From NCBI GenBank assembly GCA_017504405.1, contig JAFVRG010000012.1, forward strand, positions 1 through 64,000: a DNA stretch of 64,000 nucleotides, given 5' to 3'. Made by a program: the position numbers and the translations under genes. Below are positions 5,323-41,959 of the stretch, one piece after another (the stretch's first letter is position 1; every line of letters begins with the position of its first letter). This stretch comes from Clostridia bacterium. GTDB lineage: Bacteria; Bacillota; Clostridia; Oscillospirales; CAG-272. The notes under the pieces are model-generated. The model was not told the DNA's origin. It saw only the letters and a program-made list of their open reading frames with translations, and did no database searches.

Positions 5323-7836
5323 TTAGCCGAGCCAGCTCTTGCCAACCTGTACGTCGGCTGTGAGAGAAACGGAGAGCTTAGCCGCGCCTTCCATTTCCTC
5401 GCAGAGGATAACTCTTGCCTTGTCAGCGTCATTCTCTTTACATTCAACTATAAGCTCGTCGTGCACCTGCATTATCAGCTTTGCATCGGGTAGCTCTCTT
5501 TCCAGCCTGTCAGCTACACGAACCATAGCGATTTTCATTATATCAGCCGCACTGCCCTGAATAGGACTGTTCATTGCAACCCTCTTGCCAAAGCTGCGGA
5601 GCATACCGTTCTGCGCCTTGAGCTCGGGTATATATCTGCGCCTGCCGAATAGGGTGGTGGTATATCCGTCACGCTCTGCTGCCTCAACTGTTGCACGCAG
5701 ATAGCCGTCTATCTTCGGGTAGCTGTCAAAGTAGCTCTGTATATACTGCTTAGCCTCGGCGTTGCTTATTCCGAGGTCCTTTGAGAGGGAGTATGCGCCT
5801 ATTCCGTATACGATTCCGAAATTGACAGCTTTCGCCCGCTTGCGCAAATCCTCGTCTACAAACGGCTCGGGGATGTTGAATACCGCCGCCGCAGTCCGTG
5901 CGTGTATATCTGCGCCGCTGTTGAAGGCATCCGTCATGTTCTCATCCCCCGACATAGCGGCGAGCAGCCGAAGCTCTATCTGTGAGTAGTCGGCATCGAC
6001 GAGCACACAGCCCTCGTCAGCGATAAAAAAGCCTCGCATCTCCCGTCCGAGAGGGGTACGTATGGGTATATTCTGCAAATTCGGCTCTGCCGAGGACAGT
6101 CTTCCTGTAGCGGTCAAAGCCTGCTTGAATTCGGTATGAACACGCCCCTGTGCGTCTACCGCCTTGGTAAGTCCGACGACGTAGGTCGAAATCAGCTTAG
6201 TCAGCTGGCGGTATTCTAGTATCAGATTTATTATGGGATGCTCGTCACGGAGTGATTCGAGTATTTCCGCATTGGTCGAGTATCCGCTCTTTGTTTTCTT
6301 GCCGTGGGGCAGAGATAGCTTTTCAAAAAGTATCTCTCCGAGCTGCTTTGGCGAGCTTATGTTAAACTCCTCGCCTGCGAGAGTGTATATTTCCTTTTCT
6401 GTTGTGTCAACAGTCGTGCGTAGACGCTCTCCGAATGCGTTTATCGCATCCACGTCTATGCGAAATCCGTTCTTTTCGGTTTTTGCCAGCACCCGTGCGA
6501 GGGGGAGCTCCACCTCGTCAAGCAGGGAGAGTGCGCCTGTGTCGGCGAGCCGTGAGCGCAGCTCACGGTCAAGCTCTGCAAGCAGGTAGGTTGAAGGAGA
6601 GCTCTCGCTTGCGTTTATGCCGAAATAGACCTTTGCCAGATGCGCCGCTGATTTCTGCGCATTCGAGGAGTCAAGGACGTATGCCGACAGCATAACGTCG
6701 TGCACCTTACAGCAAACGTCTGCGCCGTTGTCCCATAGCGTATGATACAGCTTTTTCGAGTCAAACACGGTGACTGTTCTATCCCCTGAAAACAAGGGGG
6801 TTATGGCACTTATTTCTCCGCAAAACGAGTAATTTTTCCCGTTTGCCGACACGTAGATTTTATCGGAAATCTCAATTGAGAAATCATCCGTGACACAGGA
6901 AATTAAATCGTCACATTCGGTGTATTCGCCGCACAGCTCAACCGTCGGGGCGGCGGCACAAGTGCGCTCGGGCTCTGTGAGCCCGAATTTCTTTATAAAG
7001 GAATAAAGCTCAAAATCCTCGAGCAGAGCATAGAGCTTGTCATTGTCAATGCCGTTGTAGGTTAAATCCGAAAGCCCCTTGCCTATCGGCGCATTTCGCA
7101 CTATTCTGGCGAGCGTTTGCGAGAGGTAGGCGTTATCCTTATCCTTTTCGAGCTTTGCACGCAGGGACGGTGAAATCGAGGGGGAGTCGAGGTTTTCATA
7201 TAATCCGTCGAGCGAGCCGAACTCATATATCAGCTTTATTGCCGTTTTCTCGCCAACTCCCGAAACGCCGGGAATGTTGTCCGAGGAGTCGCCCATCAGC
7301 GCCTTTAAATCCACGAACTGCGAGGGGGATATGATATATTTTTCCTCAAATTCCCCGTTGTTTACGGTGAGAGTTTCGCTGTTTGTTGCGAGCAGAACCG
7401 TCACGTTTTCGTCTATGAGCTGGAGCAGGTCCCTGTCGCCCGATAAAATATAGGCGTGCGTTCCCTCATCCTTGCTTGCAAATGCGGAAACCGTTCCGAG
7501 AATATCGTCCGCCTCATAGCCCTCAAGCGTCATAACGTTGAGTCCGAGGGCGCTCATACACGCCTTCGCTCCGTCAAACTGAGCGAGAAGCTCCTCGGGC
7601 GTTTCGTGCCTGCCTGCCTTGTAGCCCTCATACATCTGCTTGCGGAAGGTGGGGGCGTGCAGGTCAAAGGCGATAACTGCGTAATCGGGGGATAGCGCAG
7701 ACACCTGCTTCATTACTATATTGATAAGACCGTAAATGGCATTTGTGGGACGCCCGTCCTTTGTCGATAGCGCACGTATGCCGTAAAATGCACGGTTGAG
7801 TATACTGTTTCCGTCAATGACGAGTATATTTTTCAT
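5323..7836 (-). CDS. polA: DNA polymerase I
   Basis: An 837-residue DNA polymerase I for Okazaki-fragment processing and repair. The N-terminal 5'-3' exonuclease (about 1-260) carries VIDGNSILNRAFYG, the YEADD motif and the helix-hairpin GDSSDNIPGVSGVGEKTA. The middle 3'-5' exonuclease region (about 290-460) lacks clear DxE and YxxxD motifs, so proofreading is probably lost, as in Bacillus and Thermus enzymes. The polymerase domain has TATGRLSSAEPNLQNIP, motif A DADYSQIELR, motif B KRAKAVNFGIVYG and motif C MQVHDELI. It overlaps the upstream membrane-protein gene by 4 nt. Confidence 0.96.
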   Translation of the reverse strand: MKNILVIDGNSILNRAFYGIRALSTKDGRPTNAIYGLINIVMKQVSALSPDYAVIAFDLHAPTFRKQMYEGYKAGRHETPEELLAQFDGAKACMSALGLNVMTLEGYEADDILGTVSAFASKDEGTHAYILSGDRDLLQLIDENVTVLLATNSETLTVNNGEFEEKYIISPSQFVDLKALMGDSSDNIPGVSGVGEKTAIKLIYEFGSLDGLYENLDSPSISPSLRAKLEKDKDNAYLSQTLARIVRNAPIGKGLSDLTYNGIDNDKLYALLEDFELYSFIKKFGLTEPERTCAAAPTVELCGEYTECDDLISCVTDDFSIEISDKIYVSANGKNYSFCGEISAITPLFSGDRTVTVFDSKKLYHTLWDNGADVCCKVHDVMLSAYVLDSSNAQKSAAHLAKVYFGINASESSPSTYLLAELDRELRSRLADTGALSLLDEVELPLARVLAKTEKNGFRIDVDAINAFGERLRTTVDTTEKEIYTLAGEEFNISSPKQLGEILFEKLSLPHGKKTKSGYSTNAEILESLRDEHPIINLILEYRQLTKLISTYVVGLTKAVDAQGRVHTEFKQALTATGRLSSAEPNLQNIPIRTPLGREMRGFFIADEGCVLVDADYSQIELRLLAAMSGDENMTDAFNSGADIHARTAAAVFNIPEPFVDEDLRKRAKAVNFGIVYGIGAYSLSKDLGISNAEAKQYIQSYFDSYPKIDGYLRATVEAAERDGYTTTLFGRRRYIPELKAQNGMLRSFGKRVAMNSPIQGSAADIMKIAMVRVADRLERELPDAKLIMQVHDELIVECKENDADKARVILCEEMEGAAKLSVSLTADVQVGKSWLG

Positions 7837-9084: not shown

Positions 9085-9318
9085 CTTGATGTGCGATGAA
9101 GCGGGAGATTGCCGTGAAAACGGGTAACTTCCGTGGAGTATGTCCGACAAACGGGCGAAAACCTCAGTGCAAAACGGTACAAGCAGCCGTTGCACGTCCG
9201 TGTCACTTTCGGGATAACTATGCTGGTCTCCCGAATTTATTAAGGGATGTTTCTGGAACACCCGACACGGTGTAAACTCGCCCTCCCTAAATAATAATAA
9301 ATAAGGAGGAAAAAACAC
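9085..9318 (+). promoter_or_regulatory. Structured 5' leader of the ribosomal operon
   Basis: About 230 nt with no ORF but many short inverted repeats, for example ACACC/GGTGT near 9258-9273, ending in AAGGAGG before rpsJ. Ribosomal operons are often autoregulated through such leaders (L4 in several Firmicutes). The regulator is not identifiable by eye. Confidence 0.5.
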
Positions 9319-30851: not shown

Positions 30852-30882
30852 TAATCTGTAAAAATCAAAAAGGAGCAAAATG

Positions 30883-32358
30883 ATGGCAAAAAAGGTTTTA
30901 GCTTTTGACTTTGGCGCTTCGAGCGGCCGTGCAATGCTCGGCTCGTTTGAGGACGGAAAAATAAACGTAGAGGAGATACACCGCTTTTCCAACGACACCG
31001 TTATTGTAAACGGCAGAATGCACTGGGATATTCTCCGACTCTTCTTTGAGGTTAAAACTGCAATAAACAAGGCAGTTAAAATGTGCAAAATAGACGCTAT
31101 CGGTATAGATACCTGGGGCGTTGACTTCGGTATGCTCGACGATAACGGCGAGCTGATGGCTAACCCCGTCTGCTACCGTGACGAGCGCACCGTCGGTATG
31201 CCCGAGGAGGTTTTTGAGAAGATAACCAAGCATGAGCTCTATTCCCGCACGGGAACGCAGACCTTGCGTATAAACACCCTCTATCAGCTCTACTATCTTG
31301 CAAAATACCGCCCGTCGGTTATGGAGAGAATTGATAAGATTCTGTTCACCCCCGACCTTATGGCGTATTTCCTCACGGGCAAGAAGCGTTGTGAGGCAAC
31401 CATATCCTCAACCTCTAACTTCTTTGACCCCTATAACAAGAAATTTGATACCGAGCTCCTTGAAAAGCTTGGAATACGCTCGGATATTCTGCCCGAGATA
31501 ATTCAGCCGGGCGAGAGCTACGGTATGCTCTCCGATGCTCTTTGCGAGGAGTTTGACTGCGAGCCTATTCCCGTAGTTGCGGTATGCACGCACGATACGG
31601 CGAGCGCTGTTGCGGCAGCACCCACCGAGGGTGATTTCGTGTACATAAGCTGTGGCACCTGGAGCCTTTTCGGCACCGAGCTGTCAGCTCCCCTCATCAA
31701 TGACGAGAGTGAGAGAATAGACTATACAAACGAGGGCGGATACAACAACACGACCAGATTTTTGCGTAACATTATGGGTCTGTGGCTCATTCAGGAGTCA
31801 CGCCGTCAGTGGATAAGAGAGGGCGAGAACGTAAGCTACGGCGACCTCGAGCGTGAGGCGCTGGCGTGCGAGCCGTTTCAGTGCTTTATCGACTGCGATG
31901 CTCCCGAATTTGAAACCTCGGGCGACCTTCCCAACCGTGTTCGCAAATTCTGCGAGGTAACGGGACAGTACGTGCCGAAAACACGTGGCGAGGTTATGAG
32001 ATGTATCTATGAGAGCCTTGCTATGAAGTATAAGCTTCATTTTGAAACTCTGCGTAAGGCTACGGGCAAGAGCTTTGAGAATATAAACATTCTCGGCGGC
32101 GGAATCAAGGATACGTTCCTTTGCAGTCTTACCGCAGATGCAACGGGTGTTCCCGTATATGCAGGCCCTGCTGAGGCTACCGTTATGGGTAATATAGCAG
32201 TTCAGCTCATTTCTCTCGGCGAAATCAAGGATTGGAAAGAGGCGAGAAAAATCGTCGGCGATTCAATTGAGCTTAAGACCTATCTGCCTAAGGATACCAA
32301 GTCATGGGACGAGGCGTTTGTCGAGTATTCAAAATATCTTGGCAAGAGCGCAAAATAA
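30883..32358 (+). CDS. FGGY kinase, L-fuculokinase/rhamnulokinase type
   Basis: 491 residues. AFDFGASSGRAMLG is the ATP-binding start; GIDTWGVDFGMLD, SCGTWSLFGTE and NILGGGIKDTFLCSLTADATG are typical of the RhaB branch of FGGY kinases. By sequence it is RhaB-like, but its divergent pairing with fucI and the downstream fuculose-phosphate aldolase argue for L-fuculose as substrate; it may take both sugars. ATG 30883 is 7 nt from AGGAG; ATG 30880 is the alternative. A 3' region with a hairpin array follows. Confidence 0.88.
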   Translation: MAKKVLAFDFGASSGRAMLGSFEDGKINVEEIHRFSNDTVIVNGRMHWDILRLFFEVKTAINKAVKMCKIDAIGIDTWGVDFGMLDDNGELMANPVCYRDERTVGMPEEVFEKITKHELYSRTGTQTLRINTLYQLYYLAKYRPSVMERIDKILFTPDLMAYFLTGKKRCEATISSTSNFFDPYNKKFDTELLEKLGIRSDILPEIIQPGESYGMLSDALCEEFDCEPIPVVAVCTHDTASAVAAAPTEGDFVYISCGTWSLFGTELSAPLINDESERIDYTNEGGYNNTTRFLRNIMGLWLIQESRRQWIREGENVSYGDLEREALACEPFQCFIDCDAPEFETSGDLPNRVRKFCEVTGQYVPKTRGEVMRCIYESLAMKYKLHFETLRKATGKSFENINILGGGIKDTFLCSLTADATGVPVYAGPAEATVMGNIAVQLISLGEIKDWKEARKIVGDSIELKTYLPKDTKSWDEAFVEYSKYLGKSAK

Positions 32359-32375: not shown

Positions 32376-32575
32376 GCGTGTTCTCCGTTAAGGATAACAC
32401 GCCATGAAATAAATCCCTTGCGGGATTTGTGAAATGCACCTTGTGCATAAAATTCGCTTTCAGCGAGTGAAATGCCTCTCGGCATTGGTGGATTTATTTC
32501 ATTTCATGTACTACCGAAGGGAGTACATTTCATGATTGCCTTGCAATCATTTCATGTGCGTAGCACATTTCATTC
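32376..32575 (+). repeat. GAAAT-spaced multi-hairpin array, copy A
   Basis: Eight short inverted repeats in 200 nt. H0 (GCGTGTT-13 nt-AACACGC, 32376-32402) is followed by seven hairpins with 5-7 bp stems and mostly 3-4 nt loops. They begin at 32411, 32435, 32453, 32472, 32507, 32533 and 32554. The linkers are GTGAAAT in the first half and ATTTCAT in the second. TGAAATAAATCC (32405-32416) pairs with GGATTTATTTCA (32490-32501) around the first group. It lies in the 3' region of the kinase gene, before a terminator. Copy B at 39483-39683 is inverted. I do not recognise a named family. Confidence 0.9.
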
Positions 32576-32586
32576 AAAAAGAAAGT

Positions 32587-32615
32587 GGAACAGGCTATAA
32601 AACCTGTTCCTTTTT
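32587..32615 (+). terminator. Terminator after array A
   Basis: GGAACAGG pairs with CCTGTTCC, followed by five T. It ends the kinase transcript after the array. On the minus strand, CAACCGTAGAC lies just before the same stem, a decayed copy of the pre-terminator element (E4). Confidence 0.85.
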
Positions 32616-32647
32616 GTCTACGGTTGTGCCAAAATCCGTTTGCCCGT

Positions 32648-32772
32648 GATATGTCGCTTGTGCGACGTGATATGCCGACGAGGTCGGCGTGGTAATGAAA
32701 TCTGTCACAGACAGATGAAATCTACCTGCGGTGGATGAAATTGTTATACGATGAAATCCTGCTACGCAGGGT
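32648..32772. repeat. Second, variant hairpin array
   Basis: Hairpins GTCGC-TTGT-GCGAC, GCCGAC-GAG-GTCGGC, CTGTC-ACA-GACAG, CTACC-TGC-GGTGG and CCTGC-TAC-GCAGG are separated by GTGATAT (twice) and ATGAAAT (four times). One unit (TGTTATACG) is degenerate. The design matches array A but the hairpins are different. No gene is seen in 32616-32777. Confidence 0.8.
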
Positions 32773-39411: not shown

Positions 39412-39471
39412 GGGCTGCCGCCTTTTGGCATAACCGTAAGAAAAAAGGAACAGACTTTTATAGCCTGTTCC
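39411..39471 (+). terminator. Pre-terminator mini-hairpin element plus terminator (copy E3)
   Basis: GGGGC, TGCC-7 nt-GGCA (39416-39430), TAACCGTAAG, then GGAACAG (39447-39453) pairing with CTGTTCC (39465-39471) with T runs on both sides. It serves the LexA-like operon on the plus strand and the GH94 transcript, after array B, on the minus strand. Confidence 0.85.
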
Positions 39472-39482
39472 TTTTTCTTTTT

Positions 39483-39683
39483 GAATGAAATGTGCTACGC
39501 ACATGAAATGATTGCAGAGCAATCATGAAATGTACTCACTTCGGTCGTACATGAAATGAAATAAATCCACCCATGCCGAGAGGCATTTCACTCGCTGAAA
39601 GCGAATTTTGTGCACGAAGTGCATTTCACAAATCCCATAAGGGATTTATTTCACCCGCGTGTTCTCCGTTAAGGATAACACGC
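39483..39683 (-). repeat. GAAAT-spaced multi-hairpin array, copy B
   Basis: An inverted copy of array A, almost colinear over 200 nt. Base changes fall mainly in the loops, for example TTGC to TTAT, CTT to TTC and CTT to TCT, while nearly all stems are kept. It starts 2 nt after the GH94 stop on the minus strand and ends at the GGAACAG terminator. H0 (39657-39683) has its 13-nt centre flipped relative to the rest, compared with copy A. Confidence 0.9.
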
Positions 39684-39685
39684 AC

Positions 39686-41959
39686 TCAGATTACAACGTC
39701 GTATTCGGTGCGTCCCTCGACGTGAGGAATAAATGCGCTCTTGCCTGCGCCCGTGATAGTGATGTTGTACTTACAGCCTCTGAACACACGGCAAACCTTT
39801 ATATCCTTCCAATCAGCAGGGATGCAGGGCTTGATTTCCAGACCGTCCCACTTCGGCTTTATACCGAGAATGTGCTGAGTTGCCGCAATGTACATCCATG
39901 CGCTCGTGCCCGTCAGCCAGCTGACGTTTGCAAGACCGAACTTATCGCTCTCAGGGCCAAAGATATTTGATGCGTAAACGTACGGCTCAGCCTTATATCT
40001 CCACTCGCCTGCCTTGCGCTGTGCAACCATGGGAAGGAGCTGCTGATAGTATTTCCATGCACGGTCTGCACGTCCGAGCATACACTCGGCAATAATTGCC
40101 CAGGTGTTTGCGTGGCAGAATACGCTTCCGTTTTCGCCGCAGCCCTTGTTGTAATAGGTGAGGGGGTCCTCCTTTGACGGATAATCTGCCATAGAGGGGT
40201 CTATCTTCTTAATTCCGAGAGGGGTGTCCAAGAGCTCTTTTACACTGTCCATAGCTCTTTCGCCGTTTTCGCCCATTTTTGAGATAACCGACCAGGACTG
40301 AGTGTTGAGCCAGATTTTTGCCTGAGGCTCAGCCTTAGAGCCGATAAATCTGCCCTCATCGGTGATGCAACGGCGGTACCAGTCGCCGTCCCAGGCGATT
40401 TCGTTAACGAGCTTCTTCTGCGCCTCGTAAATATCGAGATATTTCTGTCCGTCCTCGCCCTTGCGCTCAGCCATTTCCGCCATCATAGGCAGAACTGTGC
40501 CGAACTGCATCGAGGTCCAGATGCTCTCGCCCTTGCCCTTACGGCATACCTTGTAGAGCATATCGTTCCAGTCGGAGGAGAGCATAAGCGGGAAGCCGTG
40601 CTCGCCGAGATTTGCCATTGTGAAATCAACAGATTTCTTGATGTGATTCCACACGGTGTCCTCGCCGCCGTCGTAGAAGGAAACGACCTCGTCAAGATAA
40701 TCGAGCGAGCCCTCCTCGGTTACTATGTTGTATGCGCTCATTATGAGCCACAAATGGTTGTCCGAGTGTATTCTTGCAAGCGGCTCCCAGCCCTCGGTAG
40801 GGAAGCAGTAGTGGTTGGTGTGACCGTCCTTGTACTGCTGGGAGAGGAGTAGATTGAGCTTATCCTTCGCCCTGCGTGTGTCGAACGGAATCATAGCGAG
40901 AATATCCTGTGCGGTATCACGCACGCCGACACCTCTGAATGTACCTGTTGCATAGTAGGAAATATTGCGTGAGAAACGGAAGTTGCGGTCTGCCTGATAG
41001 GGGTTCCAGATGTTTATCATCGTTTCCGCATCCTTGTCGGGTATCTCGCAGGAGAATTTGCCGAGGTATTCAGCCCATTCCTCTCCGAGTGCCTTATAGG
41101 ACTTCTCAACGAAATCAGCCTCTCTGCAATGTGCAACGGATGCCTTTATGTCATCCTCGGTCATAGCGGCGCCGAGGAAAACGTTAATTTCCTTTTCAAC
41201 GCCAGCCTTCAAATCAATATCAAGCTGGAGAGCGAAGCAGGGGTCGCCGCCCATCATGGTTGAGCCTGAGCATTTGCCCTCCTCAACACGAAGAGGATTT
41301 TCCTCGCTTCTGTAAGATGAAACGAACTCATCTCTGTCACAGTCAAATGCGGTCACGGGTACGTTGGTTGCGAAGTAGATGAGAGGAGTTTCGTCGGGCT
41401 TCGGTTGCATCTCAACGCCGTATTTGTAGACGAGAATATCTCCCATATTGTATGCGGCGAGCTGATGCTTGTTATAGCACTGCCACTGGAGCTCACGCAT
41501 AAATTCCATCATACCGAGCTCAACGTAGGGGAAAACCGTCAGCTTTTTATCGCTGTCGGACTTTAATTTCAGATTCCAGATGAGGGCATTTTCGTACTTG
41601 CCGACAAAATAGGTTGAGGTTGCGCTGACGCCGTTTTTCTTCGCCTCAAAGCGGGTGTAGCCCATTCCGTGAGTGGATTTCCACTCCTCGGGCTTCGAGC
41701 GGCAGGGCTCGTTTGTCGGACACCAATAATCGGCGCCGTCCTTTATGTAGGTATAAAAGCCGCTTCTGTCAGTAGGCAAATGGAAGAAACGGTAATGATT
41801 GATACGCCAAATTTGCGGACTCTTGTAGAATGCAACTCCGCCTCCTGCGTGGCTCATCATCGTGTGGAAGGTTCCGTTGGAGAGATAGTTCATCCAAGGA
41901 GTAGGTGTTTTGTAGCTGTCAAAGGAAATTTCCTTTTTTTCATTGTTAAAAGTGTACAT
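39686..41959 (-). CDS. Glycoside hydrolase family 94 phosphorylase
   Basis: 757 residues, cytoplasmic. It has the GH94 layout of an N-terminal beta-sandwich, helical linker, (alpha/alpha)6 barrel and C-terminal beta-strands. GVGVRDTAQDILAMIP, HSDNHLWLIMSAY, LSSDWNDML (general acid Asp) and GENGSVFCHANTWAI are family signatures. Such enzymes split beta-glucobioses with phosphate to give glucose-1-phosphate. Cellobiose-, laminaribiose- or chitobiose-type specificity cannot be told by eye. The adjacent GH16 favours beta-glucan or laminarin oligosaccharides. It has its own promoter with a palindrome over the -10 box. Confidence 0.92.
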   Translation of the reverse strand: MYTFNNEKKEISFDSYKTPTPWMNYLSNGTFHTMMSHAGGGVAFYKSPQIWRINHYRFFHLPTDRSGFYTYIKDGADYWCPTNEPCRSKPEEWKSTHGMGYTRFEAKKNGVSATSTYFVGKYENALIWNLKLKSDSDKKLTVFPYVELGMMEFMRELQWQCYNKHQLAAYNMGDILVYKYGVEMQPKPDETPLIYFATNVPVTAFDCDRDEFVSSYRSEENPLRVEEGKCSGSTMMGGDPCFALQLDIDLKAGVEKEINVFLGAAMTEDDIKASVAHCREADFVEKSYKALGEEWAEYLGKFSCEIPDKDAETMINIWNPYQADRNFRFSRNISYYATGTFRGVGVRDTAQDILAMIPFDTRRAKDKLNLLLSQQYKDGHTNHYCFPTEGWEPLARIHSDNHLWLIMSAYNIVTEEGSLDYLDEVVSFYDGGEDTVWNHIKKSVDFTMANLGEHGFPLMLSSDWNDMLYKVCRKGKGESIWTSMQFGTVLPMMAEMAERKGEDGQKYLDIYEAQKKLVNEIAWDGDWYRRCITDEGRFIGSKAEPQAKIWLNTQSWSVISKMGENGERAMDSVKELLDTPLGIKKIDPSMADYPSKEDPLTYYNKGCGENGSVFCHANTWAIIAECMLGRADRAWKYYQQLLPMVAQRKAGEWRYKAEPYVYASNIFGPESDKFGLANVSWLTGTSAWMYIAATQHILGIKPKWDGLEIKPCIPADWKDIKVCRVFRGCKYNITITGAGKSAFIPHVEGRTEYDVVI

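Follow-up and report, generated by a model that had tools for sequence, protein, structure and literature searches.

In the window, the 64,000-nucleotide stretch of DNA analysed in this study, an array of short hairpins, here called element A, starts at position 32376, which is 17 nt 3′ of the stop codon of an FGGY kinase gene, and ends before a terminator hairpin. The parts of this region, and of an inverse copy of the element that lies in the same window, are as follows.

30880-32358, + strand: FGGY carbohydrate kinase (Pfam PF00370/PF02782), the context of element A and outside the element
32376-32402, + strand: hp1, the terminal hairpin GCGTGTTCTCCGTTAAGGATAACACGC, which is the right-end (imperfect terminal inverted repeat) hairpin of the superfamily, exactly conserved and scattered over many genomes of the genus and the order
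32402-32478, + strand: match to Rfam Gut-1 (RF01706), 66.2 bits, E 5.6e-11, gathering score 50
32404-32416, + strand: 5′ arm of the outer long-range stem, ATGAAATAAATCC, pairing with 32490-32502
32411-32428, + strand: local hairpin AAATCCC-TTGC-GGGATTT, competing with the outer stem; the same competing pair is found in other linker families
32436-32446, + strand: hairpin GCAC-CTT-GTGC, stem kept and loop variable among copies
32454-32466, + strand: hairpin TCGCT-TTC-AGCGA (sequence and fold)
about 32472-32485, + strand: hairpin ATGCC-TCTC-GGCAT (sequence and fold)
32490-32502, + strand: 3′ arm of the outer long-range stem, GGATTTATTTCAT, pairing with 32404-32416
32508-32526, + strand: hairpin GTACTACCGAAGGGAGTAC, in the reverse-oriented half with linker ATTTCA (sequence, copy comparison and fold)
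32534-32548, + strand: hairpin GATTGC-CTT-GCAATC, stem kept and loop different in all three copies
32556-32566, + strand: hairpin GTGC-GTA-GCAC (sequence, copy comparison and fold)
32587-32610, + strand, with TTTTT at 32611-32615: intrinsic terminator GGAACAGG...CCTGTTCC-TTTTT (fold), present in copies A and C and not in D
32640-32762, + strand: a separate second array with linkers GTGATAT / ATGAAAT and a sub-threshold Gut-1 match at 32693-32762
39442-39683, - strand: inverse copy C, 91% identical to A, behind the gene at 39686-41959 (- strand)
39580-39656: Gut-1 match in the inverse copy, 56 bits (Rfam)
39657-39683: hp1 of copy C, which within its element runs opposite to hp1 of A

The preliminary description of this DNA had placed eight hairpins between the kinase stop and the terminator, and all of them were located. 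Element A folds far better than expected by chance, with z scores of -8.5 (RNA, plus strand), -8.1 (RNA, minus strand) and -9.8 (single-stranded DNA), and none of 200 dinucleotide shuffles folded as well. Its linkers switch halfway, as had been noted, from TGAAAT in the first half (with one ATAAAAT) to ATTTCA in the second, and the outer pairing proposed earlier is present as 12-13 bp that join 32404-32416 to 32490-32502. Because the 5′ arm of this stem overlaps the hairpin at 32411-32428, the two structures are mutually exclusive, and the suggested competition for these shared bases turned out to be general across the family. Termination of the kinase mRNA is probably kept, since the terminator lies directly 3′ of the array. 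Elsewhere, the window contains an S10-Clostridia ribosomal protein leader (RF03136, 42 bits) at 9087-9158 and two tRNA genes on the minus strand at 566-740.

The genome holds two copies besides A, namely C, which is inverse and 7 kb away, and D, which lies on another contig, with identities of 91-92%. Differences among the three fall mostly in loops. Reverse-complementing the first hairpin of A gives that of C exactly and that of D with one base changed. The second copy mentioned in the preliminary description is probably copy C, whose changes relative to A are mainly in loops, as stated there. The spaced-linker pattern TGAAATN{10,34}TGAAATN{10,34}TGAAAT has 24 matches in the genome and, read backwards, none, and it is present in 68 of 98 relatives, some of which have dozens of copies. 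Of the 340 unique inter-linker intervals, 65% contain a perfect stem of 4 bp or more, compared with 5% after shuffling. The earlier view of the array as a feature of the kinase 3′ UTR did not survive: no kinase orthologue found in the genus carries an array where the 3′ flank was readable, several have a plain terminator instead, and the element is dispersed behind many unrelated genes. Kinase-specific regulation was rejected on the lack of an array behind the genus orthologues found, and the window array is one copy of a DNA element that occurs in either orientation.

The first 27 nt of A, hp1, were found to be exactly conserved and scattered in a DNA search of element A against 69 genomes of the genus, mostly without the remainder of A. 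At nearly all inspected sites hp1 terminates a hairpin array, with differing linker words next to it (TGAAAT, CATAAC, AGTGAA/CTTCAC, TGAATT, AGTGAT, TATCGA/TATCGC and ACATCA); across the superfamily there are 8 or more unrelated linker words of 6-7 nt, each specific to its family. We collected 93 complete elements with a median length of 363 nt (in general about 350-450 bp), which consist, in order, of a left end GSGTGATGTTCTTAGCGGAGAATT..., a terminator-like hairpin (ACAGAAAGAG...CTCTTTTTCTGT) upstream of the array, the head-to-head hairpin array itself and hp1. The left tip GSGTGATGTTCTTAGCGGAGAATT and hp1 GCGTGTTATCCTTAACGGAGAACAC form an imperfect inverted repeat, and hp1 is reversed in 4 complete elements vs 50 in the usual orientation. 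Of 394 genomes of the order, 26, representing 20 genera, contained the exact end motif, with 0 in the control, and a scan of 84,980 species returned at least 116 stretches; the matches listed come from metagenome genomes assigned to Clostridia, Oscillospiraceae or Ruminococcus, for the most part of ruminant origin. Plasmids and phages gave no match, and an origin from a plasmid, phage or virus was rejected on this ground, the single end-motif match on a viral contig resembling a bacterial copy. Three elements of 0.9-1.0 kb with the same ends, also in terminator arms, carry one cargo gene each (GNAT-like, NUDIX-like and unknown).

L267:2368-3335: cargo element
L333, about 5850-6805: cargo element
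L365, about 545-1520: cargo element

The first two gene types, named by reading the sequence and not by a family search, we take to be GNAT (acetyltransferase)-like and NUDIX-like. At one further site (L236) a lone hp1, a hybrid of the left and right ends, sits between terminator arms with no array, possibly a minimal or collapsed form.

The flanks of complete elements are mutually complementary and resemble both arms of one intrinsic terminator, as in L213, where AAAAAAGCAGATGCA precedes the element and TGCATCTGCTTTTTT follows it. Flanking arms of at least 12 bp were present in 44% of 90 elements compared with 0.37% of shuffled pairings, and arms of at least 14 bp in 29% compared with 0.01%. 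The frequency of A peaks at 0.78 about 20 nt before the element, and that of T at 0.82 about 16-18 nt after it. By inspection there is no target site duplication, the flanks being inverted terminator arms and the bases at the junctions differing. It is conceivable in principle that the flanking arms belong to the element itself and covary like its other hairpins. The distance from stop codon to element is mostly 20-25 nt, and the contexts of 84 sites, as counted with a simple home-made gene caller, were 52 convergent, 16 ++, 15 -- and 1 divergent. The 16:15 split indicates that neither orientation relative to transcription is preferred, an argument in favour of a DNA element. In one case (L126, G046:C22) inverted flanking arms of more than 50 bp surround a single element at a contig start; either an assembly artefact or an inverted duplication that arose during insertion might account for them.

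It had been proposed that the structure is conserved as a structure, and our comparison confirms that this conservation is real and is kept across unrelated sequence. Within one sub-family of 24 copies, the local stems show 21 cells in which both sides have changed, a count reached by none of 500 shuffles, so the covariation sought across homologous copies is present; further two-sided changes were seen in hp1. The long-range stem hardly varies within the same 24 copies. It recurs, at about 10-16 nt from hp1, in the unrelated sequence of at least 8 linker families, mostly with a local hairpin that competes for the same 3′ arm. The arms in other families are TCAAATCCGTC/GACGGATTTGA, GAGATAAATCCCT/AGGGATTTATCTC, TGAATTGCAACC/GGTTGCAATTCA, TATGATTGCCC/GGGCAATCATA, TAAGTTTGCCC/GGGCAAACTTA, TCTATTCGCCT/AGGCGAATAGA and GATGTTTGCCC/GGGCAAACATC, and the stem of the window copy, ATGAAATAAATCC/GGATTTATTTCAT, stands in the same order from hp1. 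An outer stem of at least 8 bp can be formed in 90% of 90 elements, compared with 10.6% when arms are paired across families. Because the long-range stem recurs across linker families, the outer pairing is a general, conserved feature.

Copies A and C lack terminator arms and a recognisable left end, and A carries the hp1 end alone, so that their membership in the superfamily rests on hp1, the linker and the architecture. Two A-type elements elsewhere do have perfect terminator arms, of 14 bp in L063 and 11 bp in L184; their terminal hairpin differs from hp1, yet it is also a perfect palindrome. On these arms, and on the hp1, linker and architecture of A, we assign A to the superfamily. Copies A, C and D, which have hp1, linker and architecture in common but lack a recognisable left end, belong to an A-type subgroup whose distal end we take to be changed or lost.

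We consider the array likely to be one copy of a non-autonomous, MITE-like mobile DNA element in which the fold rather than the sequence is conserved. The elements are dispersed, have defined ends, are nested in terminators, show no orientation preference and keep their fold across unrelated sequences. Like MITEs, the 93 complete elements are short (<500 bp), non-coding, dispersed and multi-copy, and they have terminal inverted repeats, which are imperfect; a target site duplication, also expected of MITEs, is absent. Complete elements instead follow the IS1182/IS1272 mode of insertion in a terminator hairpin without target duplication, copy A having no arms. Since complete elements lie within the hairpin of an intrinsic terminator already resident at the site, its old arms flank the element and no direct repeat is seen. 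A recombinase or transposase acting in trans might move the elements by recognising the folded ends and cutting hairpin targets, as IS1272 does. The structural turnover, with its new linkers, compensated stems and inverted hp1, may reflect selection as a substrate, template switching at palindromes, or both.

The closest known RNA family is Gut-1, which was described in 2010 from human gut samples only as a likely free-standing noncoding RNA (PMC2864571). The preliminary description did not recognise the array as REP, BIME, CRISPR or a known riboswitch, and we agree that it is none of these, but a described family was missed: part of the array, the three hairpins with UGAAAU linkers at 32402-32478, matches Gut-1 above the gathering cut-off. 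The array as one copy of a trans-acting small RNA gene of the kind described for Gut-1, ending at the terminator, would account for the 66-bit RF01706 match and for a terminator 3′ of the array. We regard this as improbable, as the match spans only three of the eight hairpins, about a third of the array, hairpin number and linker vary among arrays, and the fold is equally good on both strands. The location of the elements about 20 nt behind stop codons, equally in both orientations, likewise argues, as far as position can indicate, against stand-alone expression of Gut-1 RNA. In our material Gut-1 is one exchangeable module of elements scattered through ruminant-gut and other Clostridia, in which 7 or more other linker words are matched weakly or not at all by the Gut-1 model, and an above-threshold match lies within a complete mobile element (L316) of a roe deer metagenome-assembled genome, outside the human gut.

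A 3′ UTR element domesticated to stabilise or terminate mRNA, with a REP- or SPRITE-like function and spread by recombination, would fit the stable hairpins on both strands and the position right behind stop codons, where 52 of 84 contexts are convergent and only 1 is divergent. There is also a precedent in the SPRITE repeats near the 3′ ends of pneumococcal genes, as reported in PMC3049150. However, insertion into terminators explains the position, orientation preference is absent (16:15), neighbouring genes are unrelated and kinase orthologues have no array, which leaves this idea a slim chance. Compared by description, the BOX and SPRITE repeats of Streptococcus pneumoniae are likewise short, modular, intergenic, mobile-looking stem-loop repeats with a variable number of internal units and a 3′ end location, but BOX makes target duplications, and terminator nesting and linker-word families do not figure in the available part of these descriptions (PMC3049150). 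REP and BIME sequences are dispersed extragenic palindromes too, and hp1 shares with them a conserved internal mismatch, but in the element's own genome no RAYT (Y1) transposase is flanked by the palindromes. Quasi-palindrome template switching, acting with no selection on structure, could by itself produce palindromes with compensated changes; it predicts both the reversed hp1 (A vs C, and 4 vs 50 in complete elements) and the observed variable loops with perfect arms. It leaves unexplained the dispersal and the conserved ends, as well as a long-range stem and competing hairpin that recur in at least 8 unrelated sequence families, and is thus very improbable as the whole account.

The elements might instead be MITEs whose parent, an IS1272-related insertion sequence of the IS1182 family, is missing from these assemblies. 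Multi-copy insertion sequences are often lost from metagenome assemblies. According to PMC4923244, IS1272 of staphylococci inserts in terminator hairpins with no target duplication, and IS1272/TnSha1 (IS1182 family) shares this target mode, the lack of direct repeats and the presence of passenger genes with the elements described here. Our elements differ in having no transposase gene, and hairpin arrays do not appear in that part of the description of IS1272 (PMC4923244). An IS1182 parent was rejected among the genomes of the genus, since a PF13751 transposase occurs in 1 of 69 and its ends are unlike those of our elements; overall we find such a parentage rather unlikely. In one element (L310) hp1 is replaced by a palindrome, GGGGCTGTCGCAAATTTTGCATTTGCGACAGCCCC, resembling the IS1182 ends in L355, and here one hairpin-targeting element has possibly inserted in the end of another.

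Between paired ends we found cargo genes only and no mobilising enzyme. Mobilisation by a Y1/RAYT transposase was set aside, since both Y1 transposases encoded in the element's own genome are ordinary IS200-type enzymes without flanking hp1 or TGAAAT. At L369:1779-3021 (G233:C28), at a contig end, a left end precedes an HTH gene and, about 0.9 kb inside, a tyrosine recombinase; this recombinase was rejected as the mobiliser, as the ends are absent from 29 homologous loci. Beyond the MITE-like reading that we prefer, we raise tentatively, and with some doubt, the possibility of a new class of mobile element that moves as a folded single strand. Such an element would combine hairpin ends and hairpin targets with a renewable, bistable hairpin array, nearly all of its sequence bar the end hairpins would be replaceable, and a putative single-strand-specific recombinase would act on it, possibly during lagging-strand synthesis.

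With the elements read as MITE-like mobile DNA, the orphan RNA class Gut-1 would be reassigned to mobile DNA, as part of an abundant, unannotated and previously unrecognised repeat family whose members, across one order of gut Clostridia, sit in terminators. Such an element would be unusual among mobile elements in that the fold is conserved and the sequence is not, and the question becomes directly testable as a search for an enzyme that recognises hairpin ends and terminator targets. One relative (G028, loci L068-L075) contains at least 8 near-identical shorter arrays (TACCTGCGGTA, CCGACAAGGTCGG, CTGCCGGTGGCAG) with ATGAAAT linkers, which lie within another repeat whose ends resemble TACCTCATCCACC / GGTGGATGAGGTA.
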